DNA from: a virus
DNA: 41,994 nt
Reading direction: 5' to 3' (one strand)
IMG/VR virus record: IMGVR_UViG_3300033141_002362
Location: 1-41,994 of that record
Shown here: in pieces, positions 1 through 38,530 of the stretch
Layout of the letters: each line of letters begins with the position of its first letter
How positions within the stretch are numbered: the stretch's first letter is position 1
The notes under the pieces: generated by a model
Seen by the model: the letters and a program-made list of their open reading frames with translations, nothing else
Databases searched by the model: none
Told to the model about the DNA's origin: nothing
Made by a program: the position numbers and the translations under genes

Positions 1-174
1 AAATGTACTTTCAATTATAAAAGTTTCCCGTATCCAAATGGTATCATTAAGGGAATACGGAGAATACTTCTTTCTACTTTTTAATCTTCTTATTGGTAGA
101 ATAATCAAGTTTTTTCTATTTTTAAGAAACGCTTTAACTTCCCACTCGCGGGCATCATATAGATGGGTGTTCAT
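1..174 (-). CDS. ASCH-domain-like protein, N-terminal part (cut by window edge)
   Basis: Only the first 58 codons lie in the window; the gene runs off position 1. The start ATG at 174-172 is preceded by GAGG at a normal distance. The visible protein begins MNTHLYDAREWE, has a basic stretch around residues 18-37, and then reads SLNDTIWIRETF at about 42-53. The last segment resembles the 'GDxLWVRETW' motif of ASCH-fold proteins, which bind RNA or modified nucleotides and are common in phages. The match rests on this single motif, and the N-terminal half is not diagnostic. The gene follows the broken gene at 189-552 by 14 bp and is probably the last visible member of the left operon. Confidence 0.5.
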   Translation of the reverse strand, partial: MNTHLYDAREWEVKAFLKNRKNLIILPIRRLKSRKKYSPYSLNDTIWIRETFIIESTF

Positions 175-188
175 TCTGAGCCTCATTT

Positions 189-7425: not shown

Positions 7426-9339
7426 TTACCTTATGTTCTTTCCTCTAGCTGTAATTACATTCCTGCCACGAAAGGTTATAAACCTTCTCCATGTTGACCT
7501 TAGGATGTCCATTATAGACTGTTCCGAATCTGCCTGAGATTCACCCGCTGCTGTAACAACTATAAGTTTAGGCTCCTCCCCCGCAACATCATCAGAATAC
7601 CAATATATTCGACCATCTGCATCATTTTCTATCCCTATTCTGAGCCCAAAATTACCGTATGTTGCAATGTGTCCATCTATGTTTTTATATAGGTCTGTTA
7701 TATCTAATGTATCCTTGGTGCCGTTGGCAAAAAGGCTATAACTAAAAGTTTTGGAAATTCCTGCTATATAGTCTCCGCCCGATGAATCAGCACCTGCATT
7801 ATACCAAGCACTATCGGATGAAAGTGAATCATAATTAGCTACACCAGGTCCACCAACTTCAGTACCTTCTGTCCAGTTCCGCCTCAATGGTCTTATTTCA
7901 ACATATCCATTGTCAAAATTACTAATTCCTTCTGCGGGAATCGATAGCACTAGTTCAGCCCTTACAATAGTATCAGCACCAATATCACTAAACTGTATAA
8001 GTGAACGTTTTGAAGCTGCTGCATATATTGTTGTGGCGCCACCATAATTATAAGTAGTTGCTGCCGAATTTATCCATGTAGATTTCGAGCATGTATATAT
8101 GGTTGTGTCTAAATCTTCATAATACTCTACATATAATTTCGGAGGGTCGGTTCCATCATCAGAACACCAATTTACGTCTTCATCACCATCAATATCATTT
8201 CCAACCATCTGTAAATGAAACCCGTTATCAGCATAAACACTATCTGCGCCCCTTATTTTCTTATATAAATCAGTAACATCCAACGAATCCCAGGTGCTTG
8301 CATTAAAGATGTTTGTGTTAAAGGAGAGCGTGTCATTACCATATATATCATTATCCGGGTCTTCTCCTCCTGCTGTAGTCCAGTTACTGCCTGACTTCCA
8401 AGAATTCCACGTTGCCTCTGACTCAACCCAATTCCTACGAAGTAAGCTTATTTTCAGGAATCCATCATCTGCAGTTGTCCCGCCACAATATAACCTTAGT
8501 TCAGCTTTAGTAATAATAGAGTTAGAAGGAATAGAATCTGTATTAAATCTTATCAGACTATTTTGAACTGACGTCCCCACATCATTTCTTATTGAAATTG
8601 CCCCACTAGTTCCATAATTTGTAGTTGGGTTATTATCTATTATTCTTGTAGCATCTGTAGCCGAGCCTTCATCGTGTAATACAGATGGGTCAATATATGT
8701 AGGATAGTTTTTATGATTCACCTCTACAATTAGGGTGTCCTTATTAATACTTACTGAAACAGGCACGGGTGTTTTATCTTTGAGGTATGCATATATCGGT
8801 GTTCTGAATATATCCCCAAATATTATATTATTTCCTTGAAGTTTAAAATCTAGATTACTATCGATAAGCCACTTGTATACAGTCGGTGCACTACTATCCT
8901 TAATTGTAAGAACATTCTTAACACCATGACCAAGTATTTCATAGTCGGATTTAGTGCCTATCCAAAGCTCAGATATAGCTTGATTTTTATATACACTTGG
9001 AGATTTAACAGAAACATTGACAGCGTCATATGCTACATAATTGTTTTCATGTTCCACACGCAAACCCGTAAACCCGTTTTTAAACCTCACCTTAACGGGA
9101 TTCTTTGTAACGGCATAGTTGTATCCATATGCTTCATTAGGCTTTATATTCCTATCAACGGAAATCCATTTATTACCATACTTATAGTTAAGGTTATTCC
9201 CAATAAGTAATCCATATTTACCGCCCTTCTTGCGAAACTTGATTGTATGTCTTCCTCTTGAAATTATCGAGTCTTCCTGACTATACGCTACATTTAGAAT
9301 TGTGAGGAATCCTAAAAGTATTGTGATGTATTTAGGCAT
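7426..9339 (-). CDS. Exported DNRLRE-domain protein, fibre-like
   Basis: 637 residues behind AGGAGG. It starts with a signal peptide: a Lys, a hydrophobic core ITILLGFLTILNVA, and a cleavage site AYS|Q. A beta-rich N-terminal half (to about 220) precedes two related domains, roughly 225-408 and 415-600. Each has the DNRLRE hallmarks: TTNYG or TTYNYGG near the start, 'SLIRF'/'SLIQF', 'KAELRLY', 'LRRNW(V/T)E', 'LDVTDLYK'/'LDITDLYK', and closing '..W.SDD ..PPKLYVEYYE' or 'EEPKLIVVTA'. DNRLRE domains occur in surface adhesins and carbohydrate-binding proteins. A Sec signal is unusual for a virion fibre. Its last 30 residues are basic. Confidence 0.8.
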   Translation of the reverse strand: MPKYITILLGFLTILNVAYSQEDSIISRGRHTIKFRKKGGKYGLLIGNNLNYKYGNKWISVDRNIKPNEAYGYNYAVTKNPVKVRFKNGFTGLRVEHENNYVAYDAVNVSVKSPSVYKNQAISELWIGTKSDYEILGHGVKNVLTIKDSSAPTVYKWLIDSNLDFKLQGNNIIFGDIFRTPIYAYLKDKTPVPVSVSINKDTLIVEVNHKNYPTYIDPSVLHDEGSATDATRIIDNNPTTNYGTSGAISIRNDVGTSVQNSLIRFNTDSIPSNSIITKAELRLYCGGTTADDGFLKISLLRRNWVESEATWNSWKSGSNWTTAGGEDPDNDIYGNDTLSFNTNIFNASTWDSLDVTDLYKKIRGADSVYADNGFHLQMVGNDIDGDEDVNWCSDDGTDPPKLYVEYYEDLDTTIYTCSKSTWINSAATTYNYGGATTIYAAASKRSLIQFSDIGADTIVRAELVLSIPAEGISNFDNGYVEIRPLRRNWTEGTEVGGPGVANYDSLSSDSAWYNAGADSSGGDYIAGISKTFSYSLFANGTKDTLDITDLYKNIDGHIATYGNFGLRIGIENDADGRIYWYSDDVAGEEPKLIVVTAAGESQADSEQSIMDILRSTWRRFITFRGRNVITARGKNIR

Positions 9340-9348
9340 ATTTACCTC

Positions 9349-11196
9349 CTAATAAGCCAGCATTATCTTTGGTTTCCTAATATAGACCTTATGATTAATA
9401 TCATCCGAAACTACACGCATGCGGATTACAAATGTATTATGGGCTTGTGACATAGCAGAAAAGGCTCCTATATAAGTACCCTCAAAACCATTTACACCAT
9501 TACCATAACCTGATATAGCTTCAGTCCACGAAGTTCCGTATCTATAATTGGTTGAGTCATACCATATATAATTGTAAGTTGGGGCGCCATCTCCATCGTA
9601 TCCACGAGTACCCCACCATATCCTAACACTATTCTGTGTAGAATCTGCTGTACTCGTCTTATACTGGATATAAAAAGTCTCAAACCGGTTGATAGGTGCT
9701 TGCACATCATAGTATGTATAGAACTCACCTACAAGAGATTCACCATCATAACTATACATGACAAGAGTAGGTATATTGTCAATTCCCGCTATTTCAGCCG
9801 TTAAAGTATCTGCATTTCCTATAGTTGCAGAAGTATCAAGGAATGTATAATTAATTGGGACATTAATCATAAAATTATAACCATTAGACACAGCATCAAA
9901 ACTCATAAGATGACCACTTACAAGAACTATTCTATTACCCATGTTAAGCGCTCTATAATCATTAACACTCTCAAACAAAAAATCTGTACCTCCGTTATTG
10001 GGTGGATTTATATACAAATTAGCACGGTCAATACCAGTTCCAACACTAACATCAGCATTAAATATTGCAGTACTATCAAACACAGCCGGACCACCAACAT
10101 AAACAGTATCCGCTATATATACAGTATCAGCATTCAAAGTACCGTCTACTATCACTTTTGTATGCTCACTCGCCCCGAGAGCACCCTGTCCCGCTGTATC
10201 TGGAAGGTTGTTGCCTATTCTTCCAGTAAACAAATGGTAATTAGCAAAATTATACTGTGTATCAGGTGCATCCGTGTAAATTGAGTCAAGATGTACTCCA
10301 CCTTCAAGTCTGCTATAATCCAATGCCCTAAGAATATCTGTTCTAAGTTCCCCTTTTGGAAACCCAACCTCACTTTCAAGTTCGTCCGCAGCAGTCCCTA
10401 CAAATACATACCTCGATTGTAACATACTATTCCAACCTTTAATAAAAAGTGTATCTTGCTTATCGGCTGAGAGGTATACTGTATTCTCACCTATCGCTAA
10501 AGAGTCCTTCGCCCTAACTACATCCCCAACAATGGTCTCAGCAATTACCTTGCTATTCTCTGCATTAATGACACCTGTAGAGACGTAGATGGTATCATTC
10601 CTAATATAAAACCTTTGTATACCACCCGTATAAAAACCCATAAGGTCAGAACTATGTCTATACACTATCCCGCCAACGTTTGCCGTTGTATCGGAAAAGG
10701 AAAGCATAGCCTCCATATCTGGAGGACTAATTAACATAATATACATGTGAGTATCGGACTCTACAACAACTGGTCTTAAGTCATTGAATCCATATGAATA
10801 GGTAGCATCAGCATCTCCCGCATCTACCTTAAGGTGAAATAATGTTCTTGGGGCTTTAGTATTTACCCCAATTCTATGGTCACTCGCCCGCACATATAAA
10901 GTTGAATCATCAGCAAAAAGATAATCAACTCGAATAGTGTCAAAAGCACTATCATTCAATACAGCAACAATAGAATCCCTTAAAGCAGTCCAATCAGTTA
11001 ATGCTATCTTTAAAGCTGAATCACCGCTACTATATACAAGATTTAAAACCTCGCCTTCCGATAACATACCTTTTAAAGCATTGCCTACCAGTACATTATT
11101 AAGTATCTGCTGTACTGTTAAGTCCTGAGCTTCGACCTGTGGAACAGAACAAAAGAATACCAGCACAATTAAACTTATTGTTAAAAATCTATTCAT
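9349..11196 (-). CDS. Exported tail-fibre-like beta-rich protein
   Basis: 615 residues from ATG 11196 (TAATG overlap with the upstream stop, GGAGGT 8 bases before); GTG 11202 is less likely. A clear signal peptide, NRFLTISLIVLVFFCSVPQ, ends VEA|Q. After a short helical stretch the protein turns beta-rich, with the phrase DHRIGVNTKAPRTLFHLKVD near residue 110, resembling the 'VGIGTxxPxxxLHV' motif found in phage fibres and chaperone-tipped adhesins. Many short Val/Thr/Asp/Tyr strands follow (DTVYIADTVYVGG, FDSTAIFNADVSV), then a probable beta-sandwich C-terminus. Host-binding or surface role inferred. The first few hundred residues are Ala/Asp/Ser-rich. Confidence 0.7.
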   Translation of the reverse strand: MNRFLTISLIVLVFFCSVPQVEAQDLTVQQILNNVLVGNALKGMLSEGEVLNLVYSSGDSALKIALTDWTALRDSIVAVLNDSAFDTIRVDYLFADDSTLYVRASDHRIGVNTKAPRTLFHLKVDAGDADATYSYGFNDLRPVVVESDTHMYIMLISPPDMEAMLSFSDTTANVGGIVYRHSSDLMGFYTGGIQRFYIRNDTIYVSTGVINAENSKVIAETIVGDVVRAKDSLAIGENTVYLSADKQDTLFIKGWNSMLQSRYVFVGTAADELESEVGFPKGELRTDILRALDYSRLEGGVHLDSIYTDAPDTQYNFANYHLFTGRIGNNLPDTAGQGALGASEHTKVIVDGTLNADTVYIADTVYVGGPAVFDSTAIFNADVSVGTGIDRANLYINPPNNGGTDFLFESVNDYRALNMGNRIVLVSGHLMSFDAVSNGYNFMINVPINYTFLDTSATIGNADTLTAEIAGIDNIPTLVMYSYDGESLVGEFYTYYDVQAPINRFETFYIQYKTSTADSTQNSVRIWWGTRGYDGDGAPTYNYIWYDSTNYRYGTSWTEAISGYGNGVNGFEGTYIGAFSAMSQAHNTFVIRMRVVSDDINHKVYIRKPKIMLAY

Positions 11197-32414: not shown

Positions 32415-33010
32415 AATATATACTCAAATATAGTTAATAAATATTAGTAAATTACGTATATAGTATACCACACATTAGTCCACATTAGATTGCATATGTA
32501 TCTAAATCTTTCACTTATGCTCACCCTATGGAAAAATTGTTGACCTATCTTTGTGTGATAATATATATAAGAAAAAAAATCGAAAAGACGCCTATACCCC
32601 TATTCACCCGCTGTATCGCATTATGCTTGCCAAGTTTACATAATGATTCTTATGTGCAATTGTATATCCAATAAAAACAACAACTTGGGACTTTCGATAG
32701 CCAATATGTGTCATATTGTCATAGCAATACAATACATATTCGGCTATATTCGGCTATTCGGGTACACCACATACGGCAATACATATACACACATACCACA
32801 CACACATATATAGAAGTATAGATATATATATATACACATATGCACATATGCGCATATATACATATTTGTCGTTACTGTTATTTCAATCCTTGTTTTCCAG
32901 CGTCATATCGGGGAATTGGGTTTCGCCCCTAGAGTAGTAATATATATACTCTAGGGTCCGGTCTAGATGCCGGGCTTGAGGAATTTTTTTTCATTTTTTT
33001 CATTTTTTCC
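32415..33010. other. Gene-free AT-rich intergenic block; possible origin or leader region
   Basis: About 600 bp without a credible gene on either strand. It holds a hairpin ACATAA/TTATGT (32639-32656), two direct copies of attcggctat (about 32737-32757), a stretch of alternating purine-pyrimidine TA/CA/CG steps around 32780-32870, then a GC-richer block of three candidate hairpins (32905-32973) ending in an eight-T run. The mix of an easily melted tract and inverted repeats between two early promoters is what an origin, or a regulated leader, would look like. Neither is proven. Confidence 0.5.
32927..32956. repeat. Perfect 10-bp inverted repeat
   Basis: CCCTAGAGTA (32927-32936) and TACTCTAGGG (32947-32956) are exact reverse complements with a 10-base AT spacer. 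The left arm's C run can also pair with GGGG/GGG just upstream (32910-32920), so two mutually exclusive hairpins are possible. Confidence 0.85.
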
Positions 33011-33039
33011 TTGACATTCACGGAACTATTGTGTATATT
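33011..33039 (+). promoter_or_regulatory. Strong rightward early promoter
   Basis: TTGACA (33011-33016), 17 bases, TATATT (33034-33039). A T-rich double tract (ttttttttcattttttttcatttttt) lies directly upstream, where an UP-element would be. The gene at 33078 follows behind AAGGAG. Confidence 0.85.
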
Positions 33040-33077
33040 ATGAGTGACAAGCATAAACAAAAATAAGGAGAAAAAAA

Positions 33078-33308
33078 ATGAAAGACAAAAAATATTCAAT
33101 CGAAAGTATCACGGGGACGGCGATGGTCTCAAATAAGTATGATGAGGGGGAATTTCCCTCACTTCATGAAGCAATGAAAAGCTTCATGAATGAGGAATTC
33201 TCTTTCATGGATAGTGAGGAGAAAATCCTCTATGACCCGGACGGAAAAATTGTTGCCGTTCGCTGGATAGAGGATGGTTACGAATTTTTTAGCTTGGGGC
33301 GCGACTAG
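33078..33308 (+). CDS. Hypothetical early protein (76 aa)
   Basis: Strong AAGGAG site. The protein is acidic, MKDKKYSIESITGTAMVSNK, then EGEFPSLHEAMKSFMNEEFS, then a beta pair KILYDPDGKIVAVRWIEDGY. No family recognised. The coding DNA is GC-richer than most of the window and contains a perfect 10-bp inverted repeat (33163-33172 with 33181-33190). Its last codons form the left arm of the terminator at 33291-33327, with the stop codon in the loop. First gene behind the promoter at 33011. Confidence 0.75.
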   Translation: MKDKKYSIESITGTAMVSNKYDEGEFPSLHEAMKSFMNEEFSFMDSEEKILYDPDGKIVAVRWIEDGYEFFSLGRD

Positions 33309-33327
33309 CGTCTCAAGCTTTTTTTTT
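33291..33327 (+). terminator. Intrinsic terminator overlapping a stop codon
   Basis: AGCTTGGGGCGC, loop gacta, GCGTCTCAAGCT: a 12-bp stem with two G-U pairs, then nine T. The loop holds most of the TAG stop of the preceding gene. Confidence 0.9.
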
Positions 33328-33344
33328 GAAAATAGGAGGGTAAG

Positions 33345-33518
33345 ATGAACGAAAAAGAAAACGTCATAGACCTCAATGAGTCCGCTGTGCTTACGGCGGA
33401 CGAAATAGAGGAATTGAGACAGGAAGGCTGGAATTGCCTCCTCATCAGATATGATGAGGAGTATCCGGCTGTTTTCCAGAATGGCAGGATAGTTACAATA
33501 GCCGCTTGTCACTTATAG
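33345..33518 (+). CDS. Hypothetical early protein (57 aa)
   Basis: ATG 33345 behind AGGAGGG, stop TAG 33516-33518. The protein is acidic, MNEKENVIDLNESAVLTADE, helix IEELRQEGWNCLL, strand pair IRYDEEYPAVFQNGRIVTIA. No family recognised. It shares size, acidity and overall layout with the 76-residue gene before it. The coding DNA contains a perfect 10-bp inverted repeat with a 4-base loop (33438-33447 with 33452-33461) and a 6-bp one (GTCCGC/GCGGAC). Confidence 0.7.
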   Translation: MNEKENVIDLNESAVLTADEIEELRQEGWNCLLIRYDEEYPAVFQNGRIVTIAACHL

Positions 33519-33565
33519 CGGCTATGGTTCAGCGGTACCGGTTGAGTGACCAGTACCGCTTTTTT
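33498..33565 (+). terminator. Tandem hairpins ending in an intrinsic terminator
   Basis: First stem ATAGCCGC/GCGGCTAT (33498-33505 with 33518-33525) spans the stop codon. Second stem AGCGGTAC/GTACCGCT (33531-33538 with 33553-33560) is followed by six T. The linking GCGGCTATGGTTCAGCGGTA looks like a tRNA 5' half (acceptor strand plus D-arm). Confidence 0.85.
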
Positions 33566-33572
33566 CGCAACC

Positions 33573-33608
33573 GCGAAAGATATAATTAATCAAAATGATA
33601 TCTTTCGC
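33573..33608 (+). promoter_or_regulatory. Early leader element, copy 1 (inverted repeat + ATGATATCTTT)
   Basis: GCGAAAGATAT (33573-33583) and ATATCTTTCGC (33598-33608) are perfect reverse complements with a 14-base loop. The right half contains the repeated element caaaatgatatctttc (33591-33606). The ATG in it opens a 10-codon frame (MISFAQTKGE) ending one base before the next gene's ATG. Confidence 0.75.
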
Positions 33609-33628
33609 ACAAACAAAAGGAGAATAAA

Positions 33629-34180
33629 ATGCAAAACAAAGAAAAGCTTAATCTTGTTTCCCCTAGTCGGGGAGAAAAATATACCATCGATGAGATTCTC
33701 CAGAAGGGGCTCGAAAGAGCGGGTCTCATTGTTGAGGAAATAGAAGTCATTGACCACAAAATCACTTGGAATAGAGACGTAGATTTGGCTCTACATATCG
33801 TATTTCACGTATCTGAATCGCAATGGTGCGATTCGGTGAACTTCAAATTTAATGGGGTCATACCGCTGCACATAACCCCAAAAGGAAAAATTTCCATCAG
33901 TTACAAGGCTGAGGGAAGTTCGTCAATCAATCCAGCGGCGCCAAACAAGCCCACTGGAGACGAACGTGTAGGAAAAGGAATAGTTTCCCCTTGTGGAATT
34001 ATGTATTGTTGGGTGGATGGGGAGAAAGACAAGGGCGTGGATATAGAAATAGAGAAAATCATCGAAAATCCTCTATTTCAAAAGATTTTAAATAGGCTAT
34101 TCGCCGAAAGGTTCATAAGTGGTCTGTTTAGTATCGAAAAAAATGAGTGTCTCAACCAGTATGAGGTTGAGATACTTTGA
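33629..34180 (+). CDS. Hypothetical early protein (183 aa)
   Basis: AAAGGAG before ATG 33629. N-terminus MQNKEKLNLVSPSRGEKYTI, a helix (DEILQKGLERAGLIVEEIEV), then beta-rich stretches (LALHIVFHVSESQWCDSVNF, GVIPLHITPKGKISISYKAE, SPCGIMYCWVDGE) and a helical end. I recognise no family. The coding DNA is packed with perfect inverted repeats: GAATCGCA/TGCGATTC at 33815-33834, GAAATAGAG/CTCTATTTC at 34046-34079, and a 12-bp stem with one G-U at 34146-34176. An alternative +strand frame in the first 100 bp is a shadow. Confidence 0.75.
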   Translation: MQNKEKLNLVSPSRGEKYTIDEILQKGLERAGLIVEEIEVIDHKITWNRDVDLALHIVFHVSESQWCDSVNFKFNGVIPLHITPKGKISISYKAEGSSSINPAAPNKPTGDERVGKGIVSPCGIMYCWVDGEKDKGVDIEIEKIIENPLFQKILNRLFAERFISGLFSIEKNECLNQYEVEIL

Positions 34181-34186
34181 GATTAG

Positions 34187-34220
34187 CGGCACTAGTCATT
34201 CGGCTAGTGCCGTTTTTTTT
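34187..34220 (+). terminator. Intrinsic terminator
   Basis: CGGCACTAG, 8-base loop, CTAGTGCCG (34204-34212), then eight T. It follows the 183-residue gene's stop by 6 bases. Confidence 0.9.
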
Positions 34221-34230
34221 CACAATTTGC

Positions 34231-34272
34231 GAAAGATACCATCAAACAAAATGATATCTTTCAAAATGATAT
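34231..34272 (+). promoter_or_regulatory. Early leader element, copy 2 plus partial repeat
   Basis: GAAAGATA (34231-34238) pairs with TATCTTTC (34255-34262). The element caaaatgatatctttc is at 34247-34262, and a second, shorter copy caaaatgatat follows directly (34262-34272). It lies between a terminator and the ribosome binding site of the gene at 34302. Confidence 0.7.
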
Positions 34273-34301
34273 AGTTCACAAAAAAATAAAGGAGCAAAAA
34301 A

Positions 34302-34613
34302 ATGGGAAAAATATATAAAATCTCAATGTATGATGCCCTGAAAAAGGGCGTCAATACTTATCACGAACTAACAGAAAACACGTTAGTTCATTATTCAAGT
34401 CCCCTAATAATAAATTCGGAAAATCCAACAATTAATAGAACAAGTTGGTTTTCCGAACCAATTCAAATTGAATGGACGGGGGACTTCCGTACGTGGATTG
34501 AATTGGCAATTAAATTTTGTGATGAACCGATTCTACACAAAAGCGAAATATATATGTCTGAAAAGTGGATTAGAAAAAGACCACACTGGACTAGATATTT
34601 CAAATTAGTATAG
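34302..34613 (+). CDS. Hypothetical early protein (103 aa)
   Basis: AAAGGAG before ATG 34302. MGKIYKISMYDALKKGVNTY, then beta-like strands, WFSEPIQIEWTGDFRTWIEL, and a Trp-rich basic end (MSEKWIRKRPHWTRYFKLV). No family recognised. The coding DNA holds GAACTAAC/GTTAGTTC (34365-34389) and a near-perfect 14-bp stem (34415-34429 with 34444-34457, one bulge). The stop codon is followed at once by the 11-bp tandem repeat and the tRNA-like minihelix. Confidence 0.7.
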   Translation: MGKIYKISMYDALKKGVNTYHELTENTLVHYSSPLIINSENPTINRTSWFSEPIQIEWTGDFRTWIELAIKFCDEPILHKSEIYMSEKWIRKRPHWTRYFKLV

Positions 34614-34630
34614 CTTGTCTATAGCTTGTC
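34609..34630. repeat. 11-bp tandem direct repeat (2 copies)
   Basis: tatagcttgtc occurs at 34609-34619 and 34620-34630. The first copy contains the TAG stop of the preceding gene; the second provides the 5' acceptor-like strand of the minihelix at 34623-34655. Confidence 0.85.
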
Positions 34631-34655
34631 TAGGTTCAATTCCTAGAACGGGCTA
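34623..34655 (+). ncRNA. tRNA acceptor/T-arm-like minihelix
   Basis: AGCTTGT (34623-34629), CTAGG stem (34630-34634), loop TTCAATT (34635-34641), CCTAG (34642-34646), one unpaired A, ACGGGCT (34648-34654), A. The T-loop fits TTCRANY, the T-stem has 5 pairs, and the outer stem 7 pairs including two G-U. This is the acceptor-plus-T-arm half of a tRNA with D and anticodon arms missing and no CCA encoded. Such minihelices are minimal RNase P substrates, so mRNA 3' processing is one possibility. No T-run follows, so it is not a normal terminator. Confidence 0.55.
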
Positions 34656-34663
34656 TTATTAAA

Positions 34664-34679
34664 CAAAATGATATCTTTT
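34664..34679 (+). promoter_or_regulatory. Early leader element, copy 3
   Basis: caaaatgatatctttt, nine bases after the minihelix. Its ATG opens a 7-codon frame MISFVQA that stops at TAA just before an ATG at 34692. Confidence 0.65.
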
Positions 34680-34697
34680 GTACAAGCATAAATGAAA

Positions 34698-34713
34698 CAA
34701 AATGATATGTTTC
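34698..34713 (+). promoter_or_regulatory. Early leader element, copy 4
   Basis: caaaatgatatgtttc, one base different from consensus, within the small dyad gaaac...gtttc. Its ATG opens an 11-codon frame MICFAQKRSIT whose TGA overlaps the start ATG of the gene at 34734 (ATGA), as in translational coupling. Confidence 0.7.
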
Positions 34714-34733
34714 GCACAAAAAAGGAGTATAAC

Positions 34734-35168
34734 ATGAAACTAAAAGGTCGATATATAGGGGAAAACTGGATTGATGAGGAATTTCTTTTCAATCCAAAGA
34801 TATACAAGCGGGACGGCAAAGTTTACGCTACACGGCGTGGATACGTTCCTTTTGAGATACATCCTGAATCAATCCACTTGGTCCAGGATGTATTGGACGC
34901 TAAAGAAAATGAGCTTGCCAAAAACCGTAAGGAATTCAACAAAATTATAGGAACTATACAAAAAGCCTCATATAGTTCTTATTCAAAAAGGTTTTCAACT
35001 AATGGAGTTCGTCTGTATTTGAAAGATGAATCTCCATTAAGAAAGCTTGGAAAATCTAAAGATGGCAATTTCACTTTTCAAGTAAAAATAACCGGAAGTA
35101 ACGCCCATAAATGGGAAAATTCCGATAGATGGGTATACTTCGGGGAAATAGTAAATATAGGAGGGTAA
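34734..35168 (+). CDS. Hypothetical early protein (144 aa)
   Basis: ATG 34734 behind AAAGGAG is preferred to the in-frame ATG at 34692, which lies in leader elements. MKLKGRYIGENWIDEEFLFN, then KVYATRRGYVPFEIHPESIH, a long helix (VLDAKENELAKNRKEFNKII), and a beta end (NGVRLYLKDESPL, FTFQVKITGSNAHKW, DRWVYFGEIVNIGG). No family recognised. The DNA has ATACATCCTG/CAGGATGTAT (34857-34866 with 34884-34893), GAACTATA/TATAGTTC and TAATGGAG/CTCCATTA. The stop overlaps the Shine-Dalgarno of the next gene. Confidence 0.7.
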   Translation: MKLKGRYIGENWIDEEFLFNPKIYKRDGKVYATRRGYVPFEIHPESIHLVQDVLDAKENELAKNRKEFNKIIGTIQKASYSSYSKRFSTNGVRLYLKDESPLRKLGKSKDGNFTFQVKITGSNAHKWENSDRWVYFGEIVNIGG

Positions 35169-35169
35169 A

Positions 35170-35544
35170 ATGTTTTTTAATATTTCAAATCACCCTAGTT
35201 CAAACTGGAGTGAGAAACAAATTTCCGCTGCTAAAAAACTAAACGGTGAAATAGTTGATATTCCTTTTCCTAATGTCAATCCAAACCTTAACAGTGATGA
35301 TGTTCGGAAATTGGAACAAGATATTTTGGATACAATACGGAAGTTTGTACCCGAAATATCGGGTCATTATTTCATGATACAAGGAGAATTTTCCTTGTGT
35401 TATTATTTGTTTCGGGAAATTTCTCAACTTGATGGTAACATAGTAGTCGCTACTACTGAAAGAAAAGTAATTGAGACCGTTAATCATGATGGGACGGTCT
35501 CAAAGATTACACAATTTAAGTTTGTGCAGTTCAGAAAAATATAA
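35170..35544 (+). CDS. Small Csx15/Csx20-like protein, candidate ring nuclease-type (cyclic oligoadenylate) phage protein
   Basis: 124 residues behind AGGAGGG. The opening MFFNISNHPSSNWSEKQISA is a strand, then an 'N-H-P-S' turn and a helix; IVDIPFPNVNPNLNSDDVRK follows, then HYFMIQGEFSLCYYLFREI, NIVVATTERKVIET and a final QFKFVQFRKI. I recall this order, including 'NHPSSxWSExQ', 'DIPFPxVxP', 'QGEFxLxxxL' and '(T/S)ERxV', from a widespread small Rossmann-like family. I associate that family, from memory and unchecked, with the CARF-like Csx15/Csx20 proteins predicted to be ring nucleases in type III CRISPR loci. A phage version could degrade a cyclic-oligonucleotide alarm. The DNA contains GAGACCGT/ACGGTCTC at 35473-35501. 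Confidence 0.5.
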   Translation: MFFNISNHPSSNWSEKQISAAKKLNGEIVDIPFPNVNPNLNSDDVRKLEQDILDTIRKFVPEISGHYFMIQGEFSLCYYLFREISQLDGNIVVATTERKVIETVNHDGTVSKITQFKFVQFRKI

Positions 35545-35562
35545 AAATAAAGGAGGGCTAAA

Positions 35563-35820
35563 ATGAAAGTAACGAATAATGATTGTACAAGCCGAATTTC
35601 GGCACAAAAAGGCATTCAGCTTGTATCGAAAATTAGCAAAGAATATAAAAACTCCTGTATTCTTTTCAACCCGTATAATTCTGGTGTAGCTGTTATGGTC
35701 GCGTGGAATAATGATTGTGCAGAATGTGAACCTAAAACATGGATTTTTGAATGTATTGGTAAAAATTTTGTTCGCAATATTCCCGGTCATATTCAGATTA
35801 AAACAGGTCGATTTTGGTAA
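35563..35820 (+). CDS. Hypothetical early protein (85 aa)
   Basis: AAAGGAGG before the ATG. MKVTNNDCTSRISAQKGIQL, helix, then strands NSCILFNPYNSGVAVMVAW, a small Cys pair (NNDCAECEP), and WIFECIGKNFVRNIPGHIQI. Cys pair plus Cys8 and Cys later could bind metal, but the pattern is not a known ribbon. The 5' end can form TACAAGC/GCTTGTA. Function unknown. Confidence 0.65.
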   Translation: MKVTNNDCTSRISAQKGIQLVSKISKEYKNSCILFNPYNSGVAVMVAWNNDCAECEPKTWIFECIGKNFVRNIPGHIQIKTGRFW

Positions 35821-35857
35821 AAATAAACAAACAATTACCAAACTTATGGAGGGTAAG

Positions 35858-36226
35858 ATGCAAGTAAAAAGTGATAACAAAACAATTGATATAAGTCATA
35901 TTATCGTTGAAGTAACAAAGTACGATAATGTAACTTATATCGATTTTGGGGCGTATGCAAAAACTATTAGGGGAAAAAAGTATCATCCATGCATGATAAA
36001 CTCTTTCGGTAAACTTGGATTAAGAATAGATTCACTGCACAATTACACAATTTCGCTCATAAAAATTCCAGATAATATATTTTCAAAAGTAAAAATAAAA
36101 GTAGTGAAAAGTCTCACAAGTTTAGATTTTTCGCTACAGGAAATAACTCCATTAATCATTAGAAAAATAAACCATATAACTAATATGGAATATGATATTA
36201 ACAGTTTAAATATGGAGATGAAATAA
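35858..36226 (+). CDS. Hypothetical early protein (122 aa)
   Basis: ATG 35858 is preferred (GGAGGG directly upstream) over the longer frame from 35711, which overlaps the preceding gene by 110 bp. MQVKSDNKTIDISHIIVEVT, then strands TYIDFGAYAKTIRGKKYH, LGLRIDSLHNYTISLIKIPD, VKIKVVKSLTSLDFSLQEIT, and a helical end. Beta-rich, slightly basic; no family recognised. Confidence 0.65.
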   Translation: MQVKSDNKTIDISHIIVEVTKYDNVTYIDFGAYAKTIRGKKYHPCMINSFGKLGLRIDSLHNYTISLIKIPDNIFSKVKIKVVKSLTSLDFSLQEITPLIIRKINHITNMEYDINSLNMEMK

Positions 36227-36255
36227 TTTTTAACCCTAAACAAAAGGAGAATAAC

Positions 36256-36549
36256 ATGAAAAACAAAGAATTAAAGTTTGTAACTGCAGGAGATAGTGAA
36301 CTAATTAGAAGTACAAACAAATTTTTCACTATTGCAAACAAAGAGGATGTTTTAGAACTAAAAAAGAAAATAGTCAACAAAACAACTAAAGGGCTAATTT
36401 ATGACGATAGTTTAACACCATTAGAAAACTGGTTAAAGTTTATTTGCGAATATAATGGATACAAGTTTACCTTGCCGGTGCACACTGAAATTGCAAGTGC
36501 AATTGAAAATAACCGTGAAATTAGAGAATTCGTGCACATGTTAGCCTAA
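36256..36549 (+). CDS. Hypothetical early protein (97 aa)
   Basis: AAAGGAG before the ATG. MKNKELKFVTAGDSELIRST, then an almost entirely helical remainder (EDVLELKKKIVNKTTKGLIY, PLENWLKFICEYNGYKF, TEIASAIENNREIREFVHML). No family recognised. The DNA includes ATAGTGAA/TTCACTAT near the 5' end and a palindromic TTGCA...TGCAA. Leader element copy 5 follows the gene. Confidence 0.65.
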   Translation: MKNKELKFVTAGDSELIRSTNKFFTIANKEDVLELKKKIVNKTTKGLIYDDSLTPLENWLKFICEYNGYKFTLPVHTEIASAIENNREIREFVHMLA

Positions 36550-36570
36550 AACAAAAGAACAAAAACTAAA

Positions 36571-36586
36571 CAAAATGATATCTTTC
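36571..36586 (+). promoter_or_regulatory. Early leader element, copy 5
   Basis: caaaatgatatctttc, immediately followed by AGGAG and then the ATG at 36600, so here the element abuts the ribosome binding site. Confidence 0.7.
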
Positions 36587-36599
36587 AGGAGATACCCTA

Positions 36600-37220
36600 A
36601 TGGAGTGCACAAAAAAACAAAAGTGGTATTTACACGTCTTAACAGGCGTTAATACTTCTAACCTAAAAGTATCAAAAAAAGAATGTAGCCGGTTAATAAC
36701 ACTTTCAAAAATTGACCGTAAAGAGGCAATACGGCAAACAAAAACTGCAGTCCGGGAAAGTGAAAGTATTGCTATTGTTTCAAGGTGGAATATATCTAAG
36801 CTATGGCAAGAATTTTCTCAGGCTAATGCTATACAGATTGAACAAGAGGAGTTTGTTTTTGAGCTTAGAGAATACTACAAGGAAAACCTTGCAAGCAGAA
36901 AACCGCGTATTAATTTAGAAAATCTTTCGTATACTGAACTATTAAAAAAATGTTTTTATCAAGCTATGAAAATAGAGTTTTGGGGCAAACTACTTGAGAC
37001 TATTCGGCAGCCCTTACACTTCCCGGACGGGTTTAACTGGTTTTTTCTTAATGAGCAGGAATTTCAGGAGATTCATAATGAATATGAGCATATGGAAAAT
37101 GAAAAAGAACTAACCGAAATATTAACTAATGTTAAAAACCTTATAGCGAACAATAATAAAGATAGTGCTATTAATATTATTGATAACCTTGTCAATGGTA
37201 TTGATGGTGCGCCGTTTTAA
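36600..37220 (+). CDS. Hypothetical early protein (206 aa), N-terminal 'TxKQ...LTG' module
   Basis: AGGAG before the ATG. The N-terminus MECTKKQKWYLHVLTGVNTS with SKKECSRLITL resembles a short helical module seen at the start of many phage and plasmid proteins ('T-x-x-Q-x-x-x-L-x-x-L-T-G ... S-K-x-E-A-S-x-L-I'). The rest is helical (KLWQEFSQANAIQIEQEEFV, YTELLKKCFYQAMKIEFWGK) with an acidic C-terminal half. No catalytic motif. Function unknown, possibly nucleic-acid-associated. Confidence 0.65.
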   Translation: MECTKKQKWYLHVLTGVNTSNLKVSKKECSRLITLSKIDRKEAIRQTKTAVRESESIAIVSRWNISKLWQEFSQANAIQIEQEEFVFELREYYKENLASRKPRINLENLSYTELLKKCFYQAMKIEFWGKLLETIRQPLHFPDGFNWFFLNEQEFQEIHNEYEHMENEKELTEILTNVKNLIANNNKDSAINIIDNLVNGIDGAPF

Positions 37221-37239
37221 CCAACAAAAGGAGGATAAA

Positions 37240-37371
37240 ATGACGTTCATACAACTTATAAACAATATTATTTTTCTCTTACAAAATCCAGAAAAGATTA
37301 AAGAAACGGACCCTAAAACCATTGAATACTATATTGATATGCTATATGCGTATCAGGAACAGACAAAATGA
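37240..37371 (+). CDS. Small hypothetical protein (43 aa)
   Basis: ATG 37240 behind AAAGGAGG, preferred to an upstream in-frame ATG at 37165 that lies inside the previous gene. MTFIQLINNIIFLLQNPEKI, then KTIEYYIDMLYAYQEQTK. Helical and slightly hydrophobic at the start. Its stop overlaps the next start (ATGA). Function unknown. Confidence 0.6.
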   Translation: MTFIQLINNIIFLLQNPEKIKETDPKTIEYYIDMLYAYQEQTK

Positions 37372-37622
37372 GAAACTATAAACTGTTAACCGTACAAAGT
37401 CAACTTAAGCTCAAGGGTAAACCCGTAAAGGATTATAAATTTGCCATTGAGCTTGAGTATAGGGAAAATAGCCCTCAAAATAATATCTTTTTCCCTAAAG
37501 ATAAACAAATAACAATAGGATTTAAACAAAAGGAGAAGCAACATGAACTTATCATCAGTAATCAAAAGAGAATTAAAAAGTATCTTTCCAAATCAAAAGT
37601 TTTCAGTAAAAACCAGAAATAG
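37368..37622 (+). CDS. Hypothetical early protein (84 aa)
   Basis: ATGA overlap with the preceding stop. MRNYKLLTVQSQLKLKGKPV, strand FAIELEYREN, then a Lys-rich C-terminus. The last ~27 codons overlap the next gene (start 37543) in another frame, so the basic tail may be partly a by-product of that overlap. No family recognised. Confidence 0.55.
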   Translation: MRNYKLLTVQSQLKLKGKPVKDYKFAIELEYRENSPQNNIFFPKDKQITIGFKQKEKQHELIISNQKRIKKYLSKSKVFSKNQK

Positions 37623-37704
37623 TAATATGAGCAGTTCAATTATGAAGCTACAGGAGAAATACTTTCAGGAGCAAATACTTATATTTTTTGTAACCGGAAT
37701 ATGA
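37543..37704 (+). CDS. LPD29-like short protein (53 aa), possibly frameshifted
   Basis: ATG 37543 has a strong AAAGGAG site although it lies inside the preceding frame. MNLSSVIKRELKSIFPNQKF followed by SVKTRN is the start of the small LPD29 domain ('R-x-x-L-K-x-x-F-P-x-x-K-F-S-V'), found in polyvalent phage and plasmid proteins. After about 30 residues the family pattern is lost in this frame. The -1 frame is open over the same bases and continues with FNYEATGEILSGANTYIFC, joining the next small ORF. Either two overlapping genes or one gene split by a -1 shift. Confidence 0.5.
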   Translation: MNLSSVIKRELKSIFPNQKFSVKTRNSNMSSSIMKLQEKYFQEQILIFFVTGI

Positions 37705-37814
37705 GTGATAAAGCTAAAGAGATAATAAAAAGAGAATTAAACTTAAGTATCGAAACACCAGAATGGGAATTAAACAACTTCATTAGAAGAAAATTCAACG
37801 AAACAGATTTATAA
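37701..37814 (+). CDS. Small ORF (37 aa), coupled to or fused with the LPD29-like gene
   Basis: ATG 37701 overlaps the preceding stop (ATGA). MSDKAKEIIKRELNLSIETP, then EWELNNFIRRKFNETDL, helical. The same frame is open 66 bp further upstream, to just after TAA near 37625, and reads sensibly there, so it may be the C-terminal half of the LPD29-like protein. Confidence 0.45.
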   Translation: MSDKAKEIIKRELNLSIETPEWELNNFIRRKFNETDL

Positions 37815-37835
37815 CAAAAAATAAGGAGACATAAA

Positions 37836-37928
37836 ATGTTTGAACTAAAGAATAGTTTCAAATTAGAAACCAACAAAAGAACAGCAAACATAAATCTTAA
37901 ACTAAACAAAATGATATCTTTAATGTGA
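37836..37928 (+). CDS. Micro-ORF (30 aa) containing leader element copy 6
   Basis: ATG 37836 behind AAGGAG. MFELKNSFKLETNKRTANIN, LKLNKMISLM; the last codons are the repeated element itself. After TGA 37926-37928 the same frame continues open for 32 codons to a Cys-rich segment (GICCTKCGELTK), so readthrough or an old stop mutation is conceivable. Confidence 0.4.
   Translation: MFELKNSFKLETNKRTANINLKLNKMISLM
37907..37922 (+). promoter_or_regulatory. Early leader element, copy 6
   Basis: caaaatgatatcttta, inside the end of the micro-ORF at 37836-37928 and in the same frame as it. Confidence 0.6.
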
Positions 37929-38025
37929 GAAATACTATTATTAACACTAATAAACTTCAGAAAAATTAATAGTAAGGAGGTCTACACAGAAGATGGTATA
38001 TGCTGTACGAAATGCGGGGAACTAA
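37929..38025 (+). other. Remnant with a Shine-Dalgarno site and zinc-knuckle-like fragment
   Basis: AAGGAGGTCTACA (about 37974-37986) closely resembles the AGGAGGTCTACC before the gene at 38071, but the ATG 12 bases later opens only 10 codons. One other frame reads VYTEDGICCTKCGELTK, a metal-knuckle-like fragment with no start. This looks like a decayed small gene. Confidence 0.35.
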
Positions 38026-38041
38026 CAAAATGATATCTTTA
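38026..38041 (+). promoter_or_regulatory. Early leader element, copy 7
   Basis: caaaatgatatcttta. Its ATG opens a 14-codon frame MISLNPNKPIGGLP whose TGA overlaps the ATG of the RHH gene at 38071 (ATGA). Confidence 0.7.
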
Positions 38042-38070
38042 AACCCTAACAAACCAATAGGAGGTCTACC

Positions 38071-38220
38071 ATGAAGAAAAGAATTAACCTGTATCTTGAA
38101 AACAAAATTACCGATAGCGCCAGAGAAAAACTTTCAAAAAATCCAGTTCAAAGAAGTTTATCATCATTAATTGAGGAGCTTCTCTGGAAATGGGCAAACC
38201 AAAAAACAGAAGGAGAATAA
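38071..38220 (+). CDS. Ribbon-helix-helix-like small protein (49 aa)
   Basis: ATG 38071 behind AGGAGG. A basic strand (KKRINLYLEN), helix 1 (KITDSAREKLSK), a turn (NPVQRSLS) and helix 2 (SLIEELLWKWAN) follow the CopG/MetJ plan. It is the third RHH-type protein of the window and lies near the end of the early operon. Probable DNA-binding regulator; target unknown. Confidence 0.6.
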   Translation: MKKRINLYLENKITDSAREKLSKNPVQRSLSSLIEELLWKWANQKTEGE

Positions 38221-38222
38221 CT

Positions 38223-38465
38223 ATGCAGTATTATGATGATATTGCCGATAACGAAACCATTAGTTGTCTTAATTCTGTTATCAGCGATTTGAGGAACGAA
38301 ACCGAACTAAGAAACATCCCAATAACTAACAAACTAATAACTAACATCGATATAGCTATCATTAGACTTGAACAAGTTAGAGAAAAATGTAAACGTATTA
38401 TTGGAATTGAATCGGAAACCTCAATGAAGAGTTTGATTAAACGATTAAGAAAAATCAAACCTTGA
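38223..38465 (+). CDS. Hypothetical helical protein (80 aa), last early gene
   Basis: ATG 38223 behind AAGGAG; an earlier in-frame ATG at 38190 is inside the RHH gene. MQYYDDIADNETISCLNSVI, then helices NKLITNIDIAIIRLEQVREK and MKSLIKRLRKIKP. Acidic start and basic end. No family recognised. The bidirectional terminator follows within 20 bp. Confidence 0.65.
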   Translation: MQYYDDIADNETISCLNSVISDLRNETELRNIPITNKLITNIDIAIIRLEQVREKCKRIIGIESETSMKSLIKRLRKIKP

Positions 38466-38483
38466 TATTTCGGTAAAATCAAC

Positions 38484-38530
38484 AAAAAAGCCCCTGAGAG
38501 CTATTCTAAGGAACTTTCGGGGGCTTTCTT
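38484..38530. terminator. Bidirectional intrinsic terminator between converging operons
   Basis: AAAGCCCCTGAGAG (38487-38500) pairs with CTTTCGGGGGCTTT (38514-38527) in a 14-bp stem with two G-U pairs. A T-rich tail follows on the plus strand, and the A-run at 38484-38489 gives a T-run on the minus strand. Confidence 0.9.

Follow-up and report, generated by a model that had tools for sequence, protein, structure and literature searches.

Selection for short hairpins in the early coding sequences of a podovirus-like phage that carries a Csx20-like ring nuclease gene

Why are the coding sequences of a few small phage genes packed with inverted repeats? The question is raised by the viral record IMGVR_UViG_3300033141_002362 of IMG/VR, of which we analysed positions 1 to 41,994 (41,994 bases, called the window here). 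Its late genes, which include a P22-like portal and a TerL of phrog_38, lie on the minus strand, and small early genes are clustered on the plus strand. Six of these, at positions 33078-35544, are best read as the early block that a podovirus-like phage transcribes first, with a Csx20-type ring nuclease encoded by gene 6; the other five have no recognised family.

A sequence-only reading of this DNA had listed nine stems within the block and claimed that their high density was not seen in the late genes. All nine are present at the positions given (the stem 35471-35480/35494-35503 has 10 base pairs (bp), where 8 had been counted, and the one at 34415/34457 has 9 + 5 bp with a bulge). Perfect stems of at least 8 bp with a loop of 3-30 bases number 17 in the block, compared with 1.4 +/- 1.2 in dinucleotide shuffles, and a few of the 17 are intergenic, in terminators and hairpins of the 5' untranslated region (5'-UTR). 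Each of the 12 other regions tested has 8 such stems or fewer; the stretch 35545-38485 has 8, with 2.1 expected, and the late genes are at expectation. The contrast is thus real, and stronger than had been claimed.

A fold scan in sliding windows of 100 nucleotides shows a plateau with a z score of about -2.5 at approximately 33,000-35,500, compared with about -0.3 for the window as a whole; outside the plateau, the scores are close to zero. Its upstream edge is at the early promoter (~33,010), and its downstream edge is where gene 6 ends. Shuffles at the level of codons can then be used to separate folding from coding. When synonymous codons are exchanged within a gene, so that the protein and the codon usage are kept, genes 1-6 have z scores of -3.8, -3.8, -2.3, -4.0, -4.9 and -4.5, and the late genes scatter around 0. 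A stricter shuffle, which additionally keeps the dinucleotides at codon junctions, gives -8.9 for the block, compared with +1.3 for TerL, -0.9 for the portal, +0.5 for the helicase and -1.7 for the later plus-strand genes. Because both codon-level shuffles are passed, neither composition nor codon usage nor protein sequence accounts for the hairpins. The sequence-only reading had proposed just this comparison of fold energy with dinucleotide- and codon-preserving shuffles, and the shuffles reproduce neither the stem density nor the folding. Selection acts strongly on the synonymous codons of the block and favours local hairpins, most of them with spans of ~40 nucleotides or less.

The features of the block are given below. 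The coding sequences of all six genes are full of hairpins, and homologues are those in L021, a 49-kb contig found by a Csx20 search in IMG/VR.

33011..33039, plus strand: sigma-70-like promoter TTGACA-17-TATATT, 11 of 12 matches, the best of the region; the structured block starts here
33078..33308, plus strand: gene 1, 76 amino acids; homologue L021:8791-9018
33163..33190, plus strand: perfect 10-bp stem with a loop of 8, within gene 1
33291..33327, plus strand: intrinsic terminator overlapping the end of gene 1
33345..33518, plus strand: gene 2, 57 amino acids; codon shuffle z -3.8
33438..33461, plus strand: perfect 10-bp stem with a loop of 4, within gene 2
33531..33568, plus strand: terminator-like intergenic hairpin, then a T run
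33573..33608, plus strand: 5'-UTR hairpin holding one copy of the repeat AACAAAATGATATCTTT
33629..34180, plus strand: gene 3, 183 amino acids; homologue L021:10397-10939, 71% amino acid identity
34146..34176, plus strand: 12-bp stem (one G-U) at the 3' end of gene 3
34185..34222, plus strand: intrinsic terminator 3' of gene 3, kept in L021
34302..34613, plus strand: gene 4, 103 amino acids; homologue L021:11004-11315, 75% amino acid identity
34734..35168, plus strand: gene 5, 144 amino acids; codon shuffle z -4.9
34857..34893, plus strand: perfect 10-bp stem, extending to 16 pairs, within gene 5
35170..35544, plus strand: gene 6, Csx20-family ring nuclease homologue, 124 amino acids
35320..35360, plus strand: 16-pair stem within gene 6, with one fully compensatory change (T-A to C-G) relative to L021
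35471..35503, plus strand: perfect 10-bp stem within gene 6, both arms in conserved Csx20 protein sequence

What does the block encode? Gene 6 looks like a Csx20-family homologue of type III CRISPR ring nucleases, predicted to destroy the cyclic tetra-adenylate (cA4) alarm. Its product fits the PADLOC Csx20 profile over the full length (residues 1-123, E 1.3e-27). The match to NCBIfam CAS_Csx20 (2e-13, 50.7 bits) is under the curated cutoff of 70, and gene 6 is therefore a divergent member. A tblastn search gives hits of 30-33% identity within type III CRISPR loci of plasmids from Rhodothermus, Runella and Aureispira, and in an alignment of 34 members gene 6 has all of the invariant residues (N4, N7, H8, P9, W13, Q17, F33, P34, G72, E73, R98, F118, F121 and R122). 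An AlphaFold model made from an alignment has a predicted local distance difference test (pLDDT) score of 97, compared with 58 for the single-sequence model; searched against the PDB with a CARF-like Rossmann fold in question, it gives weak matches, none at E<=0.001, which include the CARF/SAVED proteins Cam1, Cad1 and Cap4. Csx20 of type III systems, of which another member has been shown to degrade cA4, is rare in phages, with a few phage genomes carrying it (PMC12409355). Viral members of the family would be expected to be anti-CRISPRs.

Is the pairing kept when the sequence changes? In L021, genes 1, 3, 4 and 6 have homologues that are arranged differently and are 67-80% identical in DNA; a plateau (z to -4.5) covers these genes and appears nowhere else in the contig. 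For a codon-aware covariation null, L021 codons were redrawn only where they differ from the window. Pairs are kept beyond this null in genes 1, 3, 4 and 6, in either direction (p between <0.002 and 0.018); gene 8, which lies outside the plateau, has no significant retention in the same test. Within perfect stems, 23 pairs are altered on both sides between the window and L021 yet still paired, and the stem at 34146-34176 keeps its first 10 pairs in L021 through three changes, with two G-U pairs. Pairing is thus partly maintained across a divergent relative, where the sequence-only reading had asked whether related phages might keep the proteins and lose the stems.

Outside the structured block, window positions 1-188, 639-1039 and 35855-37816 are 91-98% identical to L021, and no homologue of the window TerL was found in that contig. 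High identity outside the structured island and low identity within it could come either from a recent mosaic exchange or from an island that evolves faster. The fast divergence of the island genes, together with their many perfect arms, would also suit a mutational process, such as template switching or quasi-palindrome correction in replication, that makes inverted repeats locally with no selection for RNA structure. We consider such an origin quite improbable: the island is sharply bounded by a promoter on one side and the end of a gene on the other, its hairpins run through conserved Csx20 motifs by way of synonymous choice, and its pairs are kept beyond the codon null.

Do such islands go with ring nuclease genes in general? 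Clusters of extreme genes are also present in further viral contigs with a csx20 gene, whose Csx20 is 30-43% identical (open reading frames (ORFs) in this survey were called mechanically). The most striking is L023, whose ORFs are perfect hairpin after perfect hairpin, with gene z scores down to about -12 and some 500-nucleotide stretches in which up to 42% of the bases are in perfect stems of at least 7 bp, versus 2% in shuffles. For csx20 itself, the mean codon-shuffle z is -3.72 in viruses (n=10; gene 6 has -6.1 in this comparison) and -0.77 in cellular genomes and plasmids (n=84; p = 8e-6), so that membership of the Csx20 family accounts for the protein but not for its hairpin-packed codons. 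ORFs within 3 kb of a viral csx20 have a mean of -2.76, compared with -1.28 for those farther off (p = 4e-6) and -0.84 for those near the cellular copies (p = 3e-12). Among cellular copies, the most extreme, L131, is in an island that lacks type III markers and has a gene matching phage families; its neighbours reach -9. Runs of four structured ORFs occur in 8 of the 14 viral contigs with a ring nuclease and in 1 of 41 controls. In the ordinary phages T7, P22, lambda, JBD30, 2972, c2 and Mushuvirus and in other viral contigs, such genes are rare and runs almost never occur.

A second ring nuclease family, AcrIII-1 (DUF1874), can serve as an independent check. It has the same presumed role but is an unrelated protein family, and phages carrying it were found with SIRV1 gp29. 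Among the 61 ORFs in 50 kb of the Fusobacterium phage phiKSUM, the four strongest are all found at 1.2-5.0 kb, and one of them is the DUF1874 gene itself (z -5.7); in the Thermoanaerobacterium phage THSA-485A, DUF1874 is flanked by the four highest-ranking of 55 ORFs; and in Hydrogenobaculum phage 1, DUF1874 is the strongest gene. Over these three bacterial phages, the mean near the gene is -2.2, versus -0.7 far from it (p = 1e-5), and block shuffles that keep junction dinucleotides give z scores of -8.7 for phiKSUM and -6.1 for THSA-485A. No island is present in SIRV1, a hyperthermophile virus, or in L051, a contig resembling the Hydrogenobaculum phage; this would fit a mechanism that needs hairpins stable at the growth temperature, but is only suggestive. 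A viral scan for AcrIII-1 with poor patterns yielded two loci, of which one belongs to the phage of L047, and no AcrIII-1 homologue was recognised in the window. Islands of this kind thus lie around genes of two ring nuclease families in several viruses that are otherwise unrelated, and rarely around cellular copies of csx20, an association that a local mutational process would not explain.

Two observations from the survey may be added. L022 has two copies of csx20 (at 10001 and 14188), one structured (z -2.6) and the other not (z -0.4). In L023, positions 9180-9330 form a long nested palindrome of ~150 nucleotides in a part of the island that has no coding sequence; it may be a structured element of its own.

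Which property of the RNA is selected? With 34 island genes pooled, stems of at least 7 bp are enriched 3-4.6-fold at spans up to 40 nucleotides and 2.4-fold at 40-50, with no enrichment above 100 nucleotides (the hand-set gene ends of L022 in this analysis precede the stop codon, the frame and start being right). Antisense windows of 37 nucleotides, the length of a guide, self-fold beyond shuffles, with z scores of -7 for the window, -11 for L021 and -18 for L023. The overall paired fraction in the window is barely raised (0.56, versus 0.55 in shuffles), and the longest unpaired run is 25, versus 20. Since span enrichment and the folding of guide-length windows rise while overall pairing hardly does, strong short hairpins at the scale of a guide are the selected property. 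The fraction of unpaired nucleotides was also considered as the selected quantity and was rejected, the paired share having hardly changed. In a test of codon register, most of the enrichment is in the 1-3/2-2 register, which does not cleanly separate selection from mutation.

These measurements bear on the suggestion, made in the sequence-only reading, that the transcripts fold to resist RNases. The hairpins might shield early mRNAs from cA4-activated enzymes of the Csm6/Csx1 type, toxin RNases or host decay, so that the messages last for translation. Such shielding would share the association with ring nuclease genes and the early block, as well as selection at the level of mRNA with some sense excess in the window and L021. 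However, neither the unpaired share nor the longest unpaired run is reduced in the window, where only the strength of short-span hairpins has changed, and loops and linkers would stay open to any RNase that cuts there. We do not favour simple RNase resistance by a lower content of single-stranded RNA, and we consider shielding from RNases in general unlikely.

The folding energy also gives some indication of the acting strand. In the window and L021 the sense strand is the stronger, with a z score of about -4.4 when 14 genes are summed, and GU versus AC at stem mismatches in the early region is 46:29, leaning to sense RNA. In several genes, antisense energy is nearly as low as sense, as would be expected if the structure worked on DNA, with cruciforms or single-stranded hairpins serving replication, packaging, entry or protein binding. 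Against this, the hairpins have no common motif, the excess follows the gene content after the rearrangement in L021, and the sense excess is seen in both genomes; a role on DNA therefore seems very improbable.

We favour a reading in which the hairpins act against RNA-guided defence. They may well blunt recognition of the earliest anti-defence transcripts until the ring nuclease has been made, and in this we have moderate confidence. A type III complex must pair a guide of ~35-40 nucleotides with the transcript. If each stretch of guide length were folded on itself, the target would be occluded, and guides copied from the stretch would fold as well. The delay would let the ring nuclease and its neighbours be translated. 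Transcripts made later could do without such protection, and this would account for the abrupt downstream edge. In vitro, the sensitivity of type III detection varies by orders of magnitude with the structure of the target RNA (PMC8682760), and of type III spacers against the Thermus phage phiFa, only those against the early region protect (PMC7515739). Of the suggestions in the sequence-only reading, selection of the transcripts to fold is upheld by the codon and dinucleotide nulls, the pairing kept in L021 and the islands in unrelated viruses. The position of the islands, on ring nuclease genes of type III, makes its idea of resistance to an RNA-targeting defence more credible, although the step from folding to defence would still be a conjecture. 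A wider proposal, which we put forward tentatively, is that unrelated phages have convergently evolved a nucleotide-level anti-CRISPR, in which the codons of immediate-early anti-defence genes would make every guide-length stretch self-complementary, so that transcript and guide fold and recognition is disabled before the ring nuclease is made.

Several points weigh against an action on type III recognition. Structure is little or absent in L027, L051, SIRV1 and the csx20 of L028, and islands are weak or missing in the ring-nuclease viruses L026, L027, L047, L051 and SIRV1. The islands were found through searches for ring nucleases, and those elsewhere may be under-counted: positions 41735-44215 of the Desulfofustis phage LS06-2018-MD01 (L137) hold four structured ORFs with no recognised ring nuclease, the z score reaching -6.3 at a RecBCD inhibitor gene, and this is possibly a hairpin island tied to another anti-defence function. 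The tie of the present phage to any type III system is itself presumptive. The sense RNA is not proven to be the acting strand, as the antisense strand of L023 is as structured as the sense strand, and among pairs changed between the window and L021, G-U is not above A-C (64 versus 54, p = 0.4). The strand symmetry of L023 would also suit a mutational origin. A hairpin effect on guides is as likely as one on targets, because an effect on guides would tolerate strand symmetry.

Do known systems account for the hairpins? In the genome-scale ordered RNA structure (GORS) of RNA viruses, coding RNA is pervasively folded by codon choice and is suspected to evade RNA sensing. GORS is genome-wide pairing in RNA viruses, whereas here a double-stranded DNA phage has many independent short hairpins in one early block, with the plateau confined to 33000-35500. 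Rickettsia palindromic elements are hairpin-forming sequences within ORFs, and are copies of repeat families; the hairpins of the block, unlike these, share no sequence and arise mainly by codon choice. A direct repeat search finds that shared copies are mainly leader and ribosome-binding-site sequences plus one UTR repeat, and the intragenic hairpins form no repeat family. Rfam gives no match at gathering score and, within the block, none below threshold. The sequence-only suggestion that the transcripts might act as RNAs themselves thus finds no support, with no Rfam family above threshold and no sequence shared among the hairpins. The effect of target structure on VmeCmr, by which a structured target lowers type III signalling in vitro, is an assay observation and was not described as a viral strategy (PMC8682760).

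Early anti-defence genes written in hairpins have no earlier description in the open-access literature searched. If the preferred reading is true, phages evade RNA-guided immunity by means of codons that fold, beyond inhibitor proteins and point mutations, and the wide differences in strength among type III guides would be explained. Hairpin islands would also be a sequence-only signature for anti-defence genes of unrecognised family; the islands hold many unannotated small genes beside ring nucleases.

The layout of the early region raises one more explanation. Terminator-like hairpins at 33291-33327, 33531-33568 and 34185-34222 part successive early genes, like independent cassettes. In such a terminator-separated array, the structure might tune early expression by slowing translation, blocking Rho loading or providing processing sites, and hairpins along whole transcripts would indeed hinder Rho. 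However, the hairpins are spread through the coding sequences rather than placed at the starts, and the early operons of lambda, P22, T7 and c2 have no such islands; we therefore think tuning of expression a poor candidate, with little probability.

The repeat AACAAAATGATATCTTT occurs in about eight near-identical copies, at window positions 33589, 34245, 34261, 34662, 34696, 36569, 37905 and 38024. Every copy is upstream of a plus-strand early gene, the number is well above chance, and L021 lacks the element; AACAAAATGATATCTTT is possibly a phage-specific promoter or operator. A scan for it elsewhere gave only single, chance-like matches. Similarity searches with the DNA of the block against phages and plasmids gave no match, and single-protein pattern scans with gene 3, the portal, TerL and the helicase gave no relatives. 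Two long imperfect stems are present in later plus-strand genes, at window positions 35884-35945 and 37403-37458 (arms of 24 and 26 nucleotides), the second in a stretch where the sense strand alone is structured. Window positions 32740-32870, which precede the early promoter, form a low-complexity ATATAC/CATATG tract, which gives spurious Rfam microRNA matches.

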